This document shows positions 14,072 through 23,460 of a stretch of DNA of 32,443 nucleotides, piece after piece; the stretch's first letter is position 1; every line of letters starts with the position of its first letter. The stretch lies in contig PMZA01000061.1 of the NCBI GenBank assembly GCA_003170595.1, positions 1 through 32,443 on the forward strand, in the 5' to 3' direction. The DNA comes from Armatimonadota bacterium (lineage in GTDB: Bacteria > Armatimonadota > Zipacnadia > Zipacnadales > FEN-943). The notes under the pieces are model-generated. The model had not been told where the DNA came from. It saw only the letters and a program-made list of their open reading frames with translations, and did no database searches. The position numbers were made by a program, and so were the translations under genes.

Positions 14072-15154
14072 ATGACCATGACGAGCATCGAACGCATGAA
14101 CAATGTCCTCGCCCGCAAGCCTGTCGACGTCACCCCGGTCGCCGTCAGCCCCTGGGGCGCGACCATCGATCGCTGGCGGCGCGAAGGCCATATCGGCCCG
14201 GAGGAAGATGTCGCCCTGCACTTCGGCCAGGACTTCCGCTCGGCCGGCTGGCTCAATAGCACCGCCGACCTCCTGTTCGAGGTGAAGACCCTCGAGGAGA
14301 CCGAGGAGACGATCCTCCAGATCGACGGCAACGGCGCCATGCTCCGCCGCCACAAGCTCCACGACAGCACGCCCGAGCACGTCGACTTCACGGTCAAGGA
14401 GCGCAAGGGCTGGGAGGAGATGACCAAGCCCCACCTGGTCGATCTGGACCGCCGCCGCATTCCCTTCGACGGCTATCGCGACACCCGGAAGTACTGCGCC
14501 GACAAGGACCTCTGGTTCGCCTGGGGCGGCGTTGCGCCCTTCGAGTTGATGCACCCCATCTGCGGCCACGAGTACATGCTGATGGGCATGGCCGAGGATC
14601 CCGATTGGGTCAGGGACATGGTCATGACCTTCTCCGACTGGACGATCATGCACCTAGAGGTCCTTTTCGCCGAGGAGGGCAAGCCCGACGGCTTCTTCTT
14701 CTACGAGGACATGGGCTTCAAGTTTCGCCCCTTCATGTCGCCGGCGTCGTACCAGGCGATCATCGAGCCGGGCCACAAGAAGCTCTTCGACTATGCTCAC
14801 TCGCTCGGCTGCAAGGTCATGGTCCACTCCTGCGGCTACGTCGAGCCCCTCGTGCCCGGCATGATCCGCGCGGGGATGGACTGCCTGCAGGCGATGGAGG
14901 TCAAGGCGGGCATGGACCTGCCGACCCTCTTCAACCGCTTTGGCGACCAGATCGCCTTCTTCGGCGGAGTGGACGTCCGCTGCCTCATCAGCAACGACCG
15001 CGCGGCGATCGATGCCGAGATGGATGCGAAGATCCTGCCGGTGGTGACGGGCGGGGGCGGCTACATCCTCCACTCCGATCACTCCGAGCCGCCGGAGATC
15101 GACTACGAGACGATGCGCTACTTCGTCGACCGCGGACGCACGTTGGGGCGCTAG
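14072..15154 (+). CDS. Uroporphyrinogen decarboxylase (UroD/MtaA)-superfamily protein, third zinc ligand missing
   Basis: The 360-residue protein starts with the family-typical opening (SIERMNNVLARKPVDVTPV) after a strong GAAGGAG ribosome site at 14056. It contains HSCGY (His252, Cys254), the H-x-C pair that binds zinc in corrinoid-type methyltransferases of this superfamily, and FFGGVDVR. At the place where methyltransferase members carry the third ligand, a Cys, this protein has HSDHSEPPEID. By alignment to the second family member in this window, an Ile occupies the Cys position. Haem-type uroporphyrinogen decarboxylase is unlikely: the gene is not among haem genes, and the usual N-terminal Arg-rich substrate motif is not evident. 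No corrinoid protein is adjacent. Its position after a glycosidase and a dehydrogenase suggests a catabolic role, possibly demethylation; this is inference. Confidence 0.85.
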   Translation: MTMTSIERMNNVLARKPVDVTPVAVSPWGATIDRWRREGHIGPEEDVALHFGQDFRSAGWLNSTADLLFEVKTLEETEETILQIDGNGAMLRRHKLHDSTPEHVDFTVKERKGWEEMTKPHLVDLDRRRIPFDGYRDTRKYCADKDLWFAWGGVAPFELMHPICGHEYMLMGMAEDPDWVRDMVMTFSDWTIMHLEVLFAEEGKPDGFFFYEDMGFKFRPFMSPASYQAIIEPGHKKLFDYAHSLGCKVMVHSCGYVEPLVPGMIRAGMDCLQAMEVKAGMDLPTLFNRFGDQIAFFGGVDVRCLISNDRAAIDAEMDAKILPVVTGGGGYILHSDHSEPPEIDYETMRYFVDRGRTLGR

Positions 15155-15194: not shown

Positions 15195-15228
15195 AGAGGG
15201 GCACGCTTAGCGTGCCCCTCTCTTTGTT
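15195..15228 (+). terminator. Strong intrinsic terminator, probably bidirectional
   Basis: A perfect 12-bp stem, AGAGGGGCACGC (15195-15206) with GCGTGCCCCTCT (15210-15221), closes a 3-base TTA loop and is followed by CTTTGTT. It ends the plus-strand run. On the other strand the stem is followed by TTGGTTTG, also T-rich, so it may serve the convergent pump operon too. Confidence 0.85.
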
Positions 15229-15259: not shown

Positions 15260-16714
15260 CTACTGGGGCGCCGCCGCAGGCAGGGCCGTCGTGGTGGGTG
15301 CCGGAGCTGGCCTGGTCGGCGCAGCCGCGGCTGGTGGCGCAAGGGCTCTGCCGACGGCATGGGCCAGCGCAGCCCGGGCCGTATCCAGCGCAGCCTGGGA
15401 GTTCACGCTGTTGATGTTGGCGGTATCAAGCTGCGTCTCGGCGTCCAGAACCTCGATGAAGATGGCCACACCGGCGCGGTAGCGACCCTGCGCGATGCGC
15501 AGAGCCTCCTGCGCGTTGACCACCTCGGCGTTGGCGGCCGTCAGCTTCTGCTCGTCGGTCTTGACGCTCAGATAGGCCTGCGCGACGTCGGATATGACGC
15601 CCAGACGCTGCGTCTCGTACTGGGCCTGCGCGGTCTGCAGATCGGCCTGGGCCTGTTTGATCAGGCCGGCGGTGAAGCCCGAGTCCACGGGTGTCCACTG
15701 CAGCCCCACCGAGATGCCTACCGCCCGGTTGCTGGGCGGAAAAACCGAATCGAAGGCTGCGACGCCCGCGCTGCCCACGATCGACGGCTTGTTGTTGGTC
15801 CGCGCGGCGAGGACCTCGAAGTTCGCGGCCTGGATGGCCGAGAGCGCCTGCACCATCTCCGGCCGCTGGTTGAGCCCCTGTTCCGCGAGAGCGTTCAGGT
15901 CCTCACCCGCGATCTCGGGCTCGCCGACGTTCGCCGGTTCGATGGGGGTGCGTGGATCGACGCCGATGGCCAGCGCCAGGGCAATGCGCGAGGCCGTGGC
16001 GTTGGCGCGGGCCGTCGCCAGGTCGAATACCGCCTGCGTGTAGGCGGTCTGGGCCGTGACAACATCCGCCGGCAGGCCCAGACCCGTCTTGAGCCGCGCC
16101 TGGGCCAGGGCGAAGTGCCCCAGCCGGTTGCGCACGTTGGTCTCGCTGGTCTTCACAAGCCGGACGTTCTGCAGGTACGTGTAGAAGGCCTGCTTCACCT
16201 GCAGGGCGAGGTCGGCCTGGGCCTTGGTGAGGATCGCCTGCGCTGAGCGCTCGACGGCCATGGACTCGTGCACCAGGTCGCGCGTATGGTTGAAGTCGTA
16301 GATCAGCTGCCGGCCGATGGCGGAGGCCGAGTACACGTTCGAGCCGAGTCCACTGCTGCTGGAGGACGAGCCTGTGTTCGAGGTCCCGGCGGCGACCTCC
16401 CCGCTCACGGACACCGACGGCTTCAGCAAGGACTGCTCCTGCTGGACCCGTCCCTGGGCGCCTGCTACCCCGGCCCGCGCCACCGAGATCGAGGGCTGGT
16501 GGTGCAGCGCGAGCTGTACGGCTTCGTCCGCCGTGAGTGGCCGATTGGGCACATCCGGCTGCGCCACCGGTGGCGGTGGAAGGACTACCGGCGGCGGCAG
16601 TGGCAGCTCCAGGATCTTCGGCATGACCGGCGGCGTCGGCTGCTGGGCCAAGCCCGGCGCGGCCGCGCACGCCATCAGCGCCACCGAAGCTGCCAGTAGA
16701 AGGTATCGAGCCAT
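15260..16714 (-). CDS. TolC/OprM-like outer membrane efflux protein
   Basis: The 484-residue protein forms the outer membrane channel of a tripartite pump. It starts with an export signal (MARYLLLAASVALMAC...LAQQ); LMAC could be a lipobox, as in OprM-type lipoproteins, or simple signal peptidase I cleavage after GLA could apply. A Pro-rich linker (residues 30-55) precedes two homologous halves with the usual helical repeats: LTADEAVQLALHHQPSI at the start of the first half and LNALAEQGLNQRPEM at the start of the second, and RYRAGVAIFIEVLDAETQLD near the end. The C terminus is Ala/Pro/Thr-rich. The ATG at 16714 follows a GGGGAGGG site by 8 bases and is preferred to a GTG three codons earlier. 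It is the last gene of the efflux operon, 34 bp after the MarR gene. Confidence 0.92.
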   Translation of the reverse strand: MARYLLLAASVALMACAAAPGLAQQPTPPVMPKILELPLPPPVVLPPPPVAQPDVPNRPLTADEAVQLALHHQPSISVARAGVAGAQGRVQQEQSLLKPSVSVSGEVAAGTSNTGSSSSSSGLGSNVYSASAIGRQLIYDFNHTRDLVHESMAVERSAQAILTKAQADLALQVKQAFYTYLQNVRLVKTSETNVRNRLGHFALAQARLKTGLGLPADVVTAQTAYTQAVFDLATARANATASRIALALAIGVDPRTPIEPANVGEPEIAGEDLNALAEQGLNQRPEMVQALSAIQAANFEVLAARTNNKPSIVGSAGVAAFDSVFPPSNRAVGISVGLQWTPVDSGFTAGLIKQAQADLQTAQAQYETQRLGVISDVAQAYLSVKTDEQKLTAANAEVVNAQEALRIAQGRYRAGVAIFIEVLDAETQLDTANINSVNSQAALDTARAALAHAVGRALAPPAAAAPTRPAPAPTTTALPAAAPQ

Positions 16715-16748
16715 TACCCACACCCTCCCCTTAACGGGTCAAGCACAT

Positions 16749-17219
16749 CTAGCGTCTTCCCGCGGCATCCGCACTCGACTCGCGCGAGGCGTCGGATACC
16801 GCATCATCCATCATGCTCAGCGCCCGGATCACGTTCTCCCGCGCCTCGAGGGGCAGAGACGAAAGCAGGGCCATGACGCGCTGCACATGCCGCTCGTTGC
16901 GCTCGCGCATGACTCGCTCGGCGCTGGGCGTCAATTGGAGGACCCGCACGCGCCGGTCATCCTCATCGCGCACGCGCTGCACGAAATCCGCGCGTTCCAG
17001 CCGGTCCGCGATCTGGGTCATGGCGCTCAGCGACATGCCGAGGTCGCGACTGAGGTTGGACATCGGCAGCGGCCCCTCGGCCAGCACGGCACATACGCGC
17101 AGTTGAGCGACCGACAGCTTCCCCGCCGGATCATCCTCGTCCAGAGCAAAAAGATGCCGCATGACCCGGGGCATAGCCTTCACGACAAGCCTTGCCTGGT
17201 CCTTCAGGTCGTCCGTCAT
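16749..17219 (-). CDS. MarR-family transcriptional regulator
   Basis: The 156-residue protein has the MarR winged helix-turn-helix: LSVAQLRVCAVLAEGP (residues 35-50), a helix-turn-helix around LSRDLGMSLSAMTQIADRLE with the recognition helix near residues 63-75, and the wing DEDDRRVRVLQLTP (85-98). Long helices at both ends would form the dimer interface. MarR proteins usually repress nearby efflux genes and release DNA on binding small phenolic or hydrophobic ligands. The gene lies inside the operon it probably controls. Its ATG overlaps the TGA stop of the RND pump gene by four bases (ATGA), so its synthesis is translationally coupled to the pump. The candidate operator is the 18-bp palindrome over the operon promoter. 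Confidence 0.92.
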   Translation of the reverse strand: MTDDLKDQARLVVKAMPRVMRHLFALDEDDPAGKLSVAQLRVCAVLAEGPLPMSNLSRDLGMSLSAMTQIADRLERADFVQRVRDEDDRRVRVLQLTPSAERVMRERNERHVQRVMALLSSLPLEARENVIRALSMMDDAVSDASRESSADAAGRR

Positions 17220-20200
17220 TTCTCCCTCCTGGCATGGAAGATGTTGACCAGGTCATCGAGGCCGGAGTAGACGCACGGCACGACGAAGAGCGTCAGGACT
17301 GTCGAGGTCGCGAGGCCACCGATGACGGCCGTCGCCATCGGTGCCTGGATCTCCGAACCGAGCCCGCAGGCGATAGGCAACATGCCGAGGATCGCGGCGG
17401 AGGCGGTCATCAGGATGGGGCGCAGTCGCGTCGGGCCCGCGCGGAGGATGGCCTCCTCTCGCTCGAGGCCCTCTTTGCGCAGATGGTTCGTGTAGTCGAC
17501 GAGAAGGATGCCGTTCTTGACCACGATGCCCACCAGCAGCAGCACGCCGATGAAGGCTGTGAGACCAAAGGACCGGCCCGTCAGGAAGAGGCCGAGACAC
17601 ACGCCGGTGATGGCCAGCGGGACGGATAGCAGGATCGTCAGCGGGTGCAGGAAGTGGTTGAACTGCGACGCCAACAGCATGTAGATCAGCGCGATCGCCA
17701 TGAAGACCGCCAACCCCAGGCCGGCGAACTCCTCGGCCTGACGCTTCTGGTTGGTGCCCCAGTCCCAGTAGTAGCCCGCCGGCAGCTTCATGTCGCCGAT
17801 GGCCTTCTGGATGTCCTTCTGAATGTCGCCCGACGACCGGCCCTGCGGGTTGCCGACGACGGCGATGTAGCGCTGGCGGTCCTGGCGCGTGATCTGGCTC
17901 GGGCCCGTCGAAAGTATCGGTTGGGCCACCTGGCTGAGCATTATGCCCGCTTCCGGAGTCCCTGCCGGAGCCCCCGACGCCGTCATCTGCGCCGACGGAA
18001 CCGACGGGAAGATCACTATGTTCTTCATCTCCGCGATGGTCTTGCGCGTAGCCTCAGGCTGCTGCACCAGGATCGGATACTCGAAGCCATTTTCGTTGAA
18101 GTAGCTGGCGATGGTCCCGTTCGTCGCCGTATTGATGGTGTTGGCCACGTCGGAGAAAGTGAGCCCGAGCTGGTTGGCCTTCTCGCGATCCACGTGCCAC
18201 TGGATCTCGGGCATGGCCTCCTGCCAGTTCACGTCCTGGTTCTCGAACCCGGCGATGCCGCGCGTCTTGTCCATCACGTCCTTGGATAGCTGCGACAGCG
18301 TGCCGAGGTCTTGGCCAAAAATGTCCACCTCAACGGTGTTCGAACCACCCGTCATCAGCATGCTCACGATGTCGCGCTGATCGATGAGCGTCCTCGCTCC
18401 CGGCACACCAGCGAACTTCTTGCGCAGGTCCTGCATTACTTTCAGGGTCGATTGCTTTCGGCTATCCTTCAGGTGCACCGTGATCGAGCCCTGGAAGGGG
18501 ATGAGCCGTGTGGAACTGCCGCTCAGGCTGAGGTTGCTGCCCGACGCCGAGAAGGCCGTCTCCACATTCGGGTTGGCCAGCAGGGTCTTCTCCATCTGCC
18601 GCATGGTCGCATCGGTTTGGGCCAGCGATGTGCCGATGGGCAGCTTCATCGTGATGCTGAAGTCGCCGCTGTCGGTCTGCGGCATCATCTCAACGCCGAT
18701 CAGCGGCACCAGCAGCAGGCTCAGGCAGGTGACGCCCACAGCCGCGCCTACCGTCATCAGCCGGTGGTTCAAGGCCCACGCCAGGCCGTTACGGTAGTTT
18801 TTATCGATGACATCAAAGATCCTGCCGTAGAACAGAAACAGCCTCTTGAGCCAGCTCTGGTGCTCGGAATCAGCATCCAGCGACTCGGCGTGTTCTTCAG
18901 CCGAGAGCAGCTGCGTCGCCAGCACCGGCACGACCGTCGATGCATCGAGCAGGGAGAGGGCGATGGCGAAGATGACCACCACGGCGAAGGACGTGAACAT
19001 CTCGCCGGCCTGGCCCTTGATGAAGATCAGGGGCAAGAAGACGACCATGATGGTCCAGGTCGACGCGAACACGGCCGACAAGATCTCGCTCGTCCCGTCC
19101 ACGGCCGCGTCGTAGATGCCCTTCTTATCACGTTCCAGGTGCCGGAAAATGTTCTCAAGCACCACCACCGCGTCGTCGACGATCAACCCCGTCGAGAGGG
19201 CGAGTCCGCCCAGCGTCATCGTGTTGAGGCTGAACCCCGCCAGGTACAGCAGGGCGAAGGTCGAGATGATCGAGATGGGGATGGACAGGCCGACGACCAG
19301 GGTGCTGCGGATGTTGCGCAGGAAGAACAGCAGGATCAGCACGGCCAGGAGGCCGCCGATGATAGCGCTGGATTCGACGTCCTGGATGGACTTCGAGATG
19401 TACGACGCCTGGTTGTACGCCAACCCGAACTTCAGGTTCGGGTAGATCTTGTGAACCTGCTTGATCTTCTCGTCCACCGCCTGAGCGCAGGCTACGGTGT
19501 TGGCTGCGCTCTGCTTCGACACGATAAGACCCACGGCCGGGCTGCCATTGTACCGCGTGAAGATGCGGGTCTCGCTGTGGCTGTCCTTGACGCTGGCGAC
19601 ATCGCCCAGAGTTACCAGGTGACCGTTGAAGGTAGACAGAGGGATGGCGGCCATGTCCTCCGGGCTCGTCAGCCACCCCAGGCTGCGGACCACATACTCG
19701 GTGTTGCTCTCCTTGGCGATGCCGGCGGGAAGGTTGATGTTCTCCTGGACGATCCGGTTGGTGACCTGGTCCAGGGAGATGTTCGTGGCCTTCATCTTGA
19801 TCGGGTCGACGTTGACAACGATGGCCCGCTGGTCGCCGCCGGTGGCCACGGCCGAAGCCACACCATTGGCCGCCTCGATCATCGGGGTGATCTGGTTGTC
19901 CATCTCCATGCGGAGCTTGATCGCATCGGTCTCGCCCGACACGCCGTAGATGAGGATCGGTAGCTGAGTGGGGTCGAACCTGAAGACCAGCGGCGTCTGC
20001 AGCGTGGGGTCGTTCGTGGGGAAGTTCTGCCGGGCTCGTTCCACAAGCTGGAGAACGTCCACGGCTGCCTGCCCGATGTCCGTCCCCCAGTTGAACGTCA
20101 CGATCACCGTGGAGGTGCCCTCGATCGTCGTGGACCGTATCTGGTAGAGGTTGTTGACAGCCGATACCGCTTCCTCGATGGGCCTCGTGATCTGAGTCTC

Positions 20201-20377
20201 GATCTCTTCGGGCGCTACGTTCGGCCACGTCGTCGAGACCGCCACGACGGGGATCGTTACGTTCGGAAGTAGGTCTACCGGCAGCCGCAGTACGCAGATC
20301 GCCCCGAGCAACACGAACGAGGCAATCCGCATCCACACTGTTACCGGCCGGTTAATGGCCCCGCGAGCTATGTTCAT
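17216..20377 (-). CDS. RND-family multidrug efflux pump, inner-membrane transporter (AcrB/MexB-like)
   Basis: The 1053-residue protein has the size and layout of AcrB-type proton/drug antiporters: an N-terminal transmembrane helix (ASFVLLGAICVL), a periplasmic loop, a six-helix block, a second loop and a final six-helix block. Proton-relay residues are present: Asp401 and Asp402 in GLIVDDAVVVLEN (AcrB D407/D408) and Lys954 in VGIVVKNGILLVDYTN (AcrB K940). The start INRPVTVWM and PNVAPEEIE near residue 54 are typical of the family. A short Thr/Ala/Gly-rich insert occurs near residue 800. The ribosome site AGGTGA precedes the ATG by about 7 bases. It lies 18 bp after the adaptor gene. The charged C terminus is short. 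The exported compound is unknown; drug, metal and lipid-exporting RND pumps cannot be told apart here, but the metal-specific CusA/CzcA pattern is not obvious. Confidence 0.95.
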   Translation of the reverse strand: MNIARGAINRPVTVWMRIASFVLLGAICVLRLPVDLLPNVTIPVVAVSTTWPNVAPEEIETQITRPIEEAVSAVNNLYQIRSTTIEGTSTVIVTFNWGTDIGQAAVDVLQLVERARQNFPTNDPTLQTPLVFRFDPTQLPILIYGVSGETDAIKLRMEMDNQITPMIEAANGVASAVATGGDQRAIVVNVDPIKMKATNISLDQVTNRIVQENINLPAGIAKESNTEYVVRSLGWLTSPEDMAAIPLSTFNGHLVTLGDVASVKDSHSETRIFTRYNGSPAVGLIVSKQSAANTVACAQAVDEKIKQVHKIYPNLKFGLAYNQASYISKSIQDVESSAIIGGLLAVLILLFFLRNIRSTLVVGLSIPISIISTFALLYLAGFSLNTMTLGGLALSTGLIVDDAVVVLENIFRHLERDKKGIYDAAVDGTSEILSAVFASTWTIMVVFLPLIFIKGQAGEMFTSFAVVVIFAIALSLLDASTVVPVLATQLLSAEEHAESLDADSEHQSWLKRLFLFYGRIFDVIDKNYRNGLAWALNHRLMTVGAAVGVTCLSLLLVPLIGVEMMPQTDSGDFSITMKLPIGTSLAQTDATMRQMEKTLLANPNVETAFSASGSNLSLSGSSTRLIPFQGSITVHLKDSRKQSTLKVMQDLRKKFAGVPGARTLIDQRDIVSMLMTGGSNTVEVDIFGQDLGTLSQLSKDVMDKTRGIAGFENQDVNWQEAMPEIQWHVDREKANQLGLTFSDVANTINTATNGTIASYFNENGFEYPILVQQPEATRKTIAEMKNIVIFPSVPSAQMTASGAPAGTPEAGIMLSQVAQPILSTGPSQITRQDRQRYIAVVGNPQGRSSGDIQKDIQKAIGDMKLPAGYYWDWGTNQKRQAEEFAGLGLAVFMAIALIYMLLASQFNHFLHPLTILLSVPLAITGVCLGLFLTGRSFGLTAFIGVLLLVGIVVKNGILLVDYTNHLRKEGLEREEAILRAGPTRLRPILMTASAAILGMLPIACGLGSEIQAPMATAVIGGLATSTVLTLFVVPCVYSGLDDLVNIFHARREK

Positions 20378-20395: not shown

Positions 20396-22132
20396 CTAGT
20401 AACCACTCTTCGAGCCGGCCCCAGCAGGCGTTTGAGGTTGTCCCGCGGGCGGCGCTGCCGGCGCTTGACCAGCCGGCGCGCTCTGCTGTTCTGACGAGGG
20501 ACCGGTCTGGGCCTGACCGCCTGGGCCTCCCGCTGCGGTAGCACCGGGGGCTCCTCCGGCGGCGCCGCCAGTCTCGACCTTGGCGCCGTCCTTCACGGGC
20601 GCGGAGGTGAGCACGACAACGTTCTCGCCGGCTGCCAGCCCGCTCGTGATGCTCGTGAAGTTGGCGTCGGCCAGGCCTGTGACCACAGGTGTGAAGTGAG
20701 CGATCTTGTCCGCGCCGACGACGATGACGTAGGGGCCGGTTGGCCCCTTCTGGATCGCTTCGTGCGGCACAGCCACGGCGTGCGGCGACCGCGCGGTGAC
20801 GATGGAAGCATTGCCGAACATCCCCGGCTTGAGTTCCCCGGTGGGGTTCGACATGGCCGCTCGGACGGTGAATTGGTGCGCCTGAGGGTCGGCCGAGGGG
20901 TTGAGCTGGACGATCGTCGCCGTGAAAGTGCGTCCGGGCAGCCCGTCGAACACGACGGTGATGTCCTGGCCCGTGCGGAGCGTGCCGGCCACCTCAGAGG
21001 GCACCGAAACGTTCACCCACACGTTGCCGAAGAACCGCACTTCCAGGATCTCCTGGCCCGCCGTGGCTACCGCGCCCGGGTCCATCAAACGCCCGGTCAC
21101 ATAGCCGTCGAGCGGCGAGACTAACACGGTATCCGAGAGCTGTGCCCTCGCCGCGGCCACGCTCTGCTGGTTAACGGAGACCGTCGCCCGCAGCGCCTTG
21201 AGGCTCTGCTCGTAGGCCGGTATCTGCGGCCTGTTGGCGTTGGCGAACGTCAGGGCCGCCCGCATTTGCAGGAGCTTCTGCCGCGCGGCCTCGATGTTGG
21301 CCTGGCCGCTGACCTTGGTGATGCTCAGCTGGTTGGTGGCGGCCTTCTTCTGAGCTTCGGCCGAGTCCCGCGCCGCCGTTGCCGAGGCAAGCTGGCTCTG
21401 CCCCTGCGCCACCGCCGCCTGCTGGACGAGGACCGTTGCCTTCGCGTCATCGACGTCCTGAGCCGCGATGAAGCCGTCCTTGTATAGCGCATTGGTGCGG
21501 TCGTACTTGATCTTGGCGTCGTTGAGATTCGCCTGCGCGCTATTGATGTTGGCGCGAGCGACGTTCATCGAGCCGAGGGCGTTGTCGATCCGTCCCTGGG
21601 CATCGGTGACGGCGGCCTCGGCGGCTGCGACCTGGGCGGCATAGTTCTCCCGCGCCTGCTCGTAGTCGGCGTTAGCGCTAGCCACCGCTGCCTTCTGGGT
21701 CTGGATGTTGGTACTAACCTGAACGTTGGTCGGCGTCTGCGTGAACTGCGCCTGGGCCAGCCGGTACTGAGCCTCGGACAGCGCGGCCTGCGCCTGCCGG
21801 ACCTGGGCCAAGACCTGGGAGTTGTCGACGCGCACCAGAACCTGGCCTCGCCGCACGCGGTCGCCCTCGTGGACTTGCAGGAAGATGATGCGGCCCGTGA
21901 CCTTCGGCGAGATCTTCACGGTCAAGGGCGACTCAAGCGTGCCCGTTGCCGTGAAGACGTTGGTGATGTCGCGCAACTCGACCGGGGCAAGGGAGACCTT
22001 GGGGGCGGCAGTGCTGCGCGCAATCCGTTGCTGCTGCAACTGCGCCTGCTGTGCCCGCTTGGCCACCATTCTCCACGCTAGCAAAGACCCCAATATCAAA
22101 ACGGGGATGAGGACGAGTATCAGCCGCCTCAC
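20396..22132 (-). CDS. RND periplasmic adaptor subunit (membrane fusion protein), unusually long coiled coil
   Basis: The 578-residue protein bridges the inner pump and outer channel. An N-terminal membrane anchor (ILVLIPVLILGSLLAW) leads to a Gln-rich stretch, the first lipoyl half (ATGTLESPLTVKISPKVTGRI, then VHEGDRVRRGQVLVRVD), a long Ala/Gln-rich helical hairpin (about residues 100-335), the second lipoyl half (VSPLDGYVTGRLMDPGA), beta-barrel and membrane-proximal domains (VAVPHEAIQ), and a low-complexity Gly/Ala/Pro/Gln tail from about residue 520. Family members are usually 350-420 residues; here the hairpin is roughly twice the usual length and the tail is extra. The start is a GTG with GAGGGGG 6 bases upstream. 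It is the first gene of the operon, under the promoter at 22183-22211. Confidence 0.92.
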   Translation of the reverse strand: MRRLILVLIPVLILGSLLAWRMVAKRAQQAQLQQQRIARSTAAPKVSLAPVELRDITNVFTATGTLESPLTVKISPKVTGRIIFLQVHEGDRVRRGQVLVRVDNSQVLAQVRQAQAALSEAQYRLAQAQFTQTPTNVQVSTNIQTQKAAVASANADYEQARENYAAQVAAAEAAVTDAQGRIDNALGSMNVARANINSAQANLNDAKIKYDRTNALYKDGFIAAQDVDDAKATVLVQQAAVAQGQSQLASATAARDSAEAQKKAATNQLSITKVSGQANIEAARQKLLQMRAALTFANANRPQIPAYEQSLKALRATVSVNQQSVAAARAQLSDTVLVSPLDGYVTGRLMDPGAVATAGQEILEVRFFGNVWVNVSVPSEVAGTLRTGQDITVVFDGLPGRTFTATIVQLNPSADPQAHQFTVRAAMSNPTGELKPGMFGNASIVTARSPHAVAVPHEAIQKGPTGPYVIVVGADKIAHFTPVVTGLADANFTSITSGLAAGENVVVLTSAPVKDGAKVETGGAAGGAPGATAAGGPGGQAQTGPSSEQQSAPAGQAPAAPPAGQPQTPAGAGSKSGY

Positions 22133-22178
22133 GCGGCACCCCCTCTGTCCAAGCGGTTGATACTGCTGTTATGTGTAA

Positions 22179-22196
22179 AGTTAATATACATGAACT
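22179..22196. promoter_or_regulatory. Candidate MarR operator palindrome
   Basis: AGTTAATATACATGAACT is an 18-bp imperfect palindrome, symmetric at 14 of 18 positions (AGTTnATnTAnATnAACT). It covers the -10 box of the pump operon promoter, where a bound MarR dimer would block RNA polymerase. Assignment to the operon's own MarR protein is inference. Confidence 0.5.
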
Positions 22197-22211
22197 ATTA
22201 CCGGTCGTCAA
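22183..22211 (-). promoter_or_regulatory. Sigma-70-type promoter of the efflux operon
   Basis: Read on the minus strand, TTGACG (22211-22206) and TATATT (22188-22183) are separated by 17 bases; each hexamer matches the consensus at five of six positions. Transcription would begin near 22176 and give a leader of about 44 bases before the adaptor GTG. Confidence 0.65.
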
Positions 22212-22299
22212 CTTACTTTCTTTCCATGCGCGGTTTGAGGTTGAGCCGCCGATGTACTACCATGGTCCCGATTCCACTGCGTCTGCCGGAGACGAACCT

Positions 22300-23460
22300 A
22301 TGCTACCCCGTGAACGTGTCGCCCTTGCCCTTGCCCACGAAGAGCCCGACCTCCTGCCGTGGGGCGAGCATTCCATCGACTACAACATCTACGAGATGAT
22401 CCTCGGCCGCGAGAGCTTCGTGCAGGGAAAGATACGCGAGACGAAGGCGCTCTGGGAGGGCCGCCGCGACGAGGTCGTCGCCTGCTACAATCGCGACATC
22501 CCCGACCTTGTCGACGCTCTCGGCATGGATATCGTAACGGTTGGCCAGTCGCCCAGTTCCCTCGGCAATCCGACGCCCCTCGAGGAAGTCGACGAGGAGA
22601 CCTATCGCGACCCTTCCGGCAATCTCTTCCGCGTCTCGGCCGCCACGCATCAACTCATGCCCTACAAGATCAACGTGAGCGACTACCAGCCGCCCACCCT
22701 CGATCAGCTTCAGGAGCAGATCGACCGCCTCGATGCCGACGGGCTCCAGAAGCCTGACGACTCGTGCTGGGAGACGATGCGCCACGTCGTCGCCGAGAAG
22801 AAGGCGACGCACTGGATCAACTCCTGCTGCGGCGGGATGGGCTTCCCGTCCTTCGGCCCGACCGACGAGGAGCAGTACCTCAACATGGCGCTCTACCCCG
22901 AGCTTCTCCCCAAGCTCGCCGAATTGCAGGCGAAGTGGTGCATGGCGACGCTGCCCTGGTACGCGGAGGAGGGCGTGGACTCGGTCATGCCGTGCGCCGA
23001 CCTCGGCACCTCGACGGGCCTCTTCGCCAACCCCTCGATCCTCGACGTGTGCGTGAAGCCGTGGTGGGGCGAGTACATAAAGCGCGCCCACGACCTCGGG
23101 CTCAAGGTCCTCAAGCACTGCTGCGGCTGCATCTGGGAAGCGCTGCCGATGATCTGCGAGGCAGGCTTCGACGGCTACGAGGGCATCCAGGCGAGTGGCA
23201 CGATGGACATGAAGCGCCTCAAGGAGAGCTACGGCGACCGCCTTGTGCTGTGGGGCGGCATCTGGCACGAGCACCTGCTCCTGGGCACTCCGGAGCAGAT
23301 CGAGGCCGACGCGAAGTATTCGATCAAGTGGGGCGCCCCGGGGGGCGGGATGATCTACGGCTCGAGCCATTCGCTGGCGGTAGGCTGCAAGCCTGAGAAC
23401 CTCGAAAGGATGCGTGCCAGCCGCGAGAAGTACGGCGTCTACCCGATCAGCATCGACTAG
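22300..23460 (+). CDS. Uroporphyrinogen decarboxylase (UroD/MtaA)-superfamily protein with intact H-x-C...C metal site
   Basis: The 386-residue protein begins MLPRERVALALAHEEPDLLPWG, the usual start of stand-alone UroD-family proteins. The ATG at 22300 follows a GGAG site by 8 bases; in-frame starts further upstream (22171, 22252) would add a non-conserved extension. The zinc ligands expected for corrinoid-type methyl transfer are complete: His273 and Cys275 in KHCCGCIW, and Cys363 in LAVGCKPEN. This contrasts with the other family member in the window, which lacks the last Cys. It is monocistronic, divergent from the efflux operon with a 167-bp shared control region, and convergent with the glycosidase genes. 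No corrinoid protein or MtaB-like partner is adjacent. A methyltransferase role is inferred from the ligands only; it could act on methylated sugars, aromatics or a corrinoid. Confidence 0.85.
   Translation: MLPRERVALALAHEEPDLLPWGEHSIDYNIYEMILGRESFVQGKIRETKALWEGRRDEVVACYNRDIPDLVDALGMDIVTVGQSPSSLGNPTPLEEVDEETYRDPSGNLFRVSAATHQLMPYKINVSDYQPPTLDQLQEQIDRLDADGLQKPDDSCWETMRHVVAEKKATHWINSCCGGMGFPSFGPTDEEQYLNMALYPELLPKLAELQAKWCMATLPWYAEEGVDSVMPCADLGTSTGLFANPSILDVCVKPWWGEYIKRAHDLGLKVLKHCCGCIWEALPMICEAGFDGYEGIQASGTMDMKRLKESYGDRLVLWGGIWHEHLLLGTPEQIEADAKYSIKWGAPGGGMIYGSSHSLAVGCKPENLERMRASREKYGVYPISID

Follow-up and report, generated by a model that had tools for sequence, protein, structure and literature searches.

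The efflux operon and its promoter

The window, by which we mean the whole analysed stretch of 32,443 nucleotides from an Armatimonadota bacterium, carries four minus-strand genes in the order MFP-RND-marR-OMF, which would be cotranscribed as an operon (Table 1). Pfam and NCBIfam are concordant on the families, and the joint presence of a periplasmic adaptor (MFP), an RND permease and an outer membrane efflux protein (OMF) identifies a tripartite RND efflux system. The product of the third gene (P0001) has a winged-helix MarR domain (PF01047, 40.8 bits for a cut-off of 24.6; PF12802, 35.5 for a cut-off of 27). It scores far below the curated NCBIfam cut-offs for the MprA/EmrR, MarR (Escherichia coli), SlyA, FabT, AdcR-family and HpaR equivalogs (32.7 bits against the MprA model, with a cut-off of 157), and its MarR subfamily is covered, and apparently named, by none of the equivalog models compared. 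Terminator-like sites number 6 in the region versus 3.9 in shuffled sequence, the stem listed at the operon end being called on the plus strand only. Plus-strand frames similar to URO-D/MtaA lie on both sides of the operon, one divergent from it (22300-23460) and one at 14072-15154, assigned by a phmmer match alone.

Table 1. Coordinates of the genes and regulatory features of the efflux locus
Feature	Position	Strand	Remarks
MFP, RND periplasmic adaptor, GTG start	20396..22132	minus	HlyD_D23, TIGR01730 above cut-off
RND permease, AcrB/AcrD/AcrF family	17216..20377	minus	PF00873, E 1.5e-261
marR, third of four genes (stop included)	16749..17219	minus	PF01047, PF12802 above cut-off
OMF, TolC-like outer membrane efflux protein	15260..16723	minus	PF02321
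12-pair stem, possible terminator	15195..15221	not assigned	between operon end and convergent plus-strand frame
Operator-like palindrome, 20 bp	22178..22197	minus	operon strand TAGTTCATGTATATTAACTT; family consensus TAgTTAAtatataTTAAcTA
-10 box TATATT	22183..22188	minus	inside palindrome
-35 box TTGACG	22206..22211	minus	17 bp from -10
Possible degenerate second operator, 17 bp upstream	22195..22214	minus	5/6 core bases; covers -35 box

About 45 bp before the GTG start of the MFP gene lies an imperfect palindrome with an 18-bp core at 22179-22196 (AGTTAATATACATGAACT; AGTTCATGTATATTAACT as read on the operon strand), in which 7 of 9 pairs are complementary. The preliminary description had placed such a palindrome over the -10 box of a TTGACG-17-TATATT promoter on the minus strand, and this is indeed the arrangement found: the promoter (22211 to 22183) matches 10 of 12 consensus bases, is the sole sigma-70-like match between 15000 and 23600, and has its TATATT inside the palindrome. 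A search for inverted repeats with a 6-base exact seed did not recover the palindrome, since its arms are interrupted. Taken singly, neither feature is significant, because 7 of 9 pairs are also reached by two further 18-bp stretches close to the operon start, and shuffled sequence yields 1.2 promoter matches of this quality in the same region. This would suit the view that the site is merely an A+T-rich -10 region, symmetrical by chance, with the MarR protein acting elsewhere, and it is therefore conservation that decides.

A motif conserved at operon starts

Of 291 genomes of the Armatimonadota, 47 (the window's genome counted) have a relative of P0001 at E up to 1e-15; the other two genomes of the window's own family gave no match at this threshold. 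An RND pump stands ahead of marR in 37 of the 47; in one of these, at locus L090, the pump is about 0.5 kb away. The loci from the 46 remaining genomes, together with 8 further loci and the window and after removal of 2 copies, gave 53 loci for analysis: 30 with MFP-RND-marR and upstream DNA, 7 truncated by a contig end in the MFP gene or ahead of it, and 16 with no RND neighbour. Some of the 30 operon rows are close relatives, so these leaders are not independent.

A palindromic motif search by expectation maximization (EM) on the 30 leaders, including that of the window, returned TAgTTAAtatataTTAAcTA, with TT.A......T.AA nearly invariant and a log-likelihood of 184.9, versus 38.0-45.8 in 13 dinucleotide-shuffled control sets run with fewer iterations. 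Sites above 12 bits were present in 25 of the 30 leaders within the zone first searched; at L067 and L085, where the MFP reading frame extends upstream, sites were recovered by a whole-locus scan. In a leave-one-out analysis, each locus's own site was excluded from its model and a 300-bp start zone was used (set by hand for L067). For 28 of the 30 loci, the top-scoring place of the entire locus then fell within this zone at the operon start, with 0.87 expected from the size of the zone. Of these top sites, 27 exceed 12 bits (12.3-32.2), and the 28th, at L069, is a weak candidate at only 5.4. The median margin of the true model over the remainder of the locus is 13.6 bits; it is smallest at L084, with 14.9 at the operon start versus 14.1 elsewhere. 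The window site scores 26.8, and the runner-up in 32 kb 4.3. A whole-locus scan found no site at L093, where the operon is present, and at L090 the best site (14.4) lies directly before the detached marR.

Control models were also drawn to the operon start: the complement in 5 of 30 loci, 50 column-permuted palindromic models in 1 to 19, a rotated model in 19 and a half-swapped one in 17. Part of the signal therefore arises because the motif is self-similar and because promoters are A+T-rich islands that attract such models. This again is what chance symmetry would lead one to expect, yet the true model is clearly ahead, since no control exceeds 19 of 30 where it reaches 28, and at the same place L078 and L081 carry perfect 20-bp palindromes and L071 one with 9 of 10 pairs. 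We consider chance symmetry highly improbable on these grounds. The preservation of the palindrome in related genomes, proposed earlier as a check, is thus borne out at homologous operon starts, and beside marR where that gene stands elsewhere.

Searches of whole genomes gave a compatible picture. For AGTTNATNTANATNAACT with up to 1 mismatch, the window site is the sole match in its 6.45-Mb genome, a weak test, as the reversed control also has 1 match. The 20-bp consensus with up to 3 mismatches likewise matches this genome only at the window site, with zero matches for the control pattern. Among 29 searched relatives, the operon site is the only match of the genome at this strictness in 6; G090 and G091 each have one match outside the operon site, 21 have none, and the control pattern matches in 2. 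As far as near-consensus sites go, the regulator looks local in the window's genome and these six relatives.

The promoter geometry is less uniform than the motif. Across 36 aligned sites, similarity to TTGACA peaks at offset -14 relative to the palindrome, 17 bp before the TATATT position, with a mean of 2.72 of 6 bases versus 1.2-2.1 at other offsets (1.25-1.93 at the neighbouring ones). The peak is partly due to cores of a second site at -17, because their initial TT.A falls on the same position; over the 28 sites lacking such a core, the mean drops to 2.32, still the top of five neighbouring offsets. At least 5 of the 6 TTGACA bases occur in 8 of 36 sites, at a spacing of 17 bp in the window, L067, L079, L081, L085 and L032, and of 18 bp in L071 and L078, and TATATT stands at the window's palindrome position in 10 of 36. 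The remaining aligned sites lack a clear promoter in this register, and the overlap with the -10 box is therefore demonstrated for part of the family only.

A second core, with at least 5 of 6 core bases, lies exactly 17 bp away in 16 of 35 loci (upstream in 8, downstream in 12; for example L074, L085 and L104), whereas the 82 offsets of 20-60 bp average 0.29 such loci and never exceed 3. At offset +10, within the site itself, 6 loci likewise reach 5 of 6 core bases. The upstream second core of the window may as well be no more than the -35 box, with which it coincides. In L074, L085 and L107, an in-frame MFP start codon follows the palindrome by some 10-20 nt, so their mRNA leaders may be very short.

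Association of the site with the regulator

The 16 loci with no RND neighbour bear on whether the site follows the pump or the regulator. L038 has no upstream DNA; among the other 15, the best site lies just before marR in seven (L032, L034, L036, L037, L039, L073 and L112; scores 12.8-24.5), L070 has a weak site (10.8) before marR, and seven have none (L083, L087, L089, L096, L101, L080 and L102). Five of the latter (L083, L087, L089, L096 and L101) group with L070 in the MarR tree (support 90/61), and none of them has an RND neighbour. All five Planctomycetota loci with upstream DNA have the site before marR. In L032, L034, L037 and L038 (the last from the same assembly as L039), marR comes first and a MacB-type ABC transporter follows downstream, with an HlyD-type adaptor in between; the adaptors of L032 and L037 are Pfam assignments, those of L034 and L038 weak phmmer similarities. 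The sequences of L036 and L039 stop close to marR or within it. Since the site precedes marR whether the gene is first or detached, it goes with the regulator and not with the class of pump.

This distribution also bears on two other readings of the site. The palindrome might be the operator of a different regulator acting on the same operons, the link to this MarR protein being a prediction. But in both phyla the site is found together with this MarR subfamily, beside RND as well as MacB pumps, and it stays with marR in third, first or detached position. Its form is also that of a MarR site, since these are described in PMC6018408 as 16-20 bp long and not always perfectly palindromic, and the motif kept at the operon start is a (pseudo)palindrome of 20 bp. 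We therefore regard a different regulator as very unlikely. Alternatively, the plus-strand URO-D/MtaA-like gene at 22300-23460 could be the one served: the site lies in the intergenic region between this divergent gene and the operon, where a dimer could act both ways. However, a URO-D homologue (E up to 1e-5) lies within 9 kb of marR in just one of the annotated loci, that of the window, and the site is kept elsewhere; moreover, the promoter match of the window is on the operon strand. This is the least probable of the readings weighed here. Adjacency to marR where the gene stands elsewhere equally speaks against symmetry by chance.

The MarR proteins of L032, L034 and L037 are 44-46% identical to that of the window. 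In the MarR tree (52 rows, L080 left out), many deep forks are unsettled and the window joins the Planctomycetota rows at 81/75 only, so no transfer is claimed. The presumed recognition-helix region (SxSAxTQxADRLE in the window), whose position we take from MarR structures, is similar in most site-bearing rows and less so in several of family f21; the comparison covered site-bearing rows and is hence no test of covariation.

The proposed circuit and its relation to known systems

Very probably, the palindrome serves as operator for the product of the third gene, a MarR protein that would repress its own MFP-RND-MarR-OMF operon. A MarR dimer over the -10 box would block RNA polymerase and thereby repress the whole operon, marR included. 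Upon arrival of a ligand, probably a substrate of the pump, MarR would be released, and pump and repressor would rise together, so that the circuit would shut itself again. Gene order and spacing fit a regulator inside the transcription unit that carries its operator, and if MarR represses, negative autoregulation follows from this order; repression instead of activation is assumed from the position of the site at the -10 box. Against this reading weigh the loci where the site is absent (L093 and seven of the 15 lacking an RND neighbour), weak (L069) or hardly set off from the rest of the locus (L084), as well as the limited share of sites with a recognizable promoter.

This type of circuit is already known from MexR and EmrR. 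mexR is divergent from the mexAB-oprM operon, unlike the window's marR, which is third inside its operon. EmrR/MprA, of the emrRAB operon of E. coli, is a MarR-family repressor that regulates itself and shares a transcript with its pump; the window resembles it in having a MarR-family gene in an operon with its pump, and differs in that the regulator gene of emrRAB comes first and the pump is of the MFS type. In Pseudomonas aeruginosa, according to PMC10609311, the MarR-family repressor MexR has palindromic operators at the promoter of the mexAB-oprM RND system, and a title cited there names the mexA-mexR intergenic region. The window shares with this system a MarR-family regulator and, as a candidate operator, a palindromic site at the promoter of an RND operon. 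The Planctomycetota loci L032, L034 and L037 have a related MarR protein and the same class of operator, with the regulator first and a MacB-type pump in place of the third position and RND pump of the window. Among the literature matches listed, taken by titles and starts of abstracts, no publication on this operon or motif was noticed.

What the analysis offers is a concrete candidate operator that has no further match in its genome at the strictness of the search, a consensus of 20 bp for the MarR subfamily, and a feedback hypothesis that can be examined with a single protein and a single DNA fragment. The data suggest that the pair of regulator and site outlasts changes of gene order and pump class. 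A bolder and rather doubtful extension would see regulator and operator as a portable cassette, belonging to an unnamed MarR subfamily of Armatimonadota and Planctomycetota and serving RND and MacB pumps, with the site kept wherever marR moves, two dimers on sites exactly 17 bp apart covering the -35 and -10 boxes, and the dose of repressor set by translation of the pump.

The preliminary description had tied repressor output to pump translation in a negative feedback loop. The conserved site strongly favours the feedback, and the coupling, even though plausible, fared less well. The marR gene is indeed third, its ATG at 17219 overlapping the RND stop codon by 4 nt (ATGA), but it may initiate independently, because its own Shine-Dalgarno sequence (AGGAGG) lies 5 nt ahead of the ATG. 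The overlap was also rejected as support for coupling, being about as common at the MFP-RND junction. Starts with an overlap of 4 or 8 nt are available at 27 of 37 RND-marR, 19 of 32 MFP-RND and 8 of 21 marR-OMF junctions, and are the best-aligned starts in 22, 19 and 5, respectively; the RND-marR overlap may thus be ordinary operon compaction. Among the three junctions of the window, only RND-marR has an overlap.
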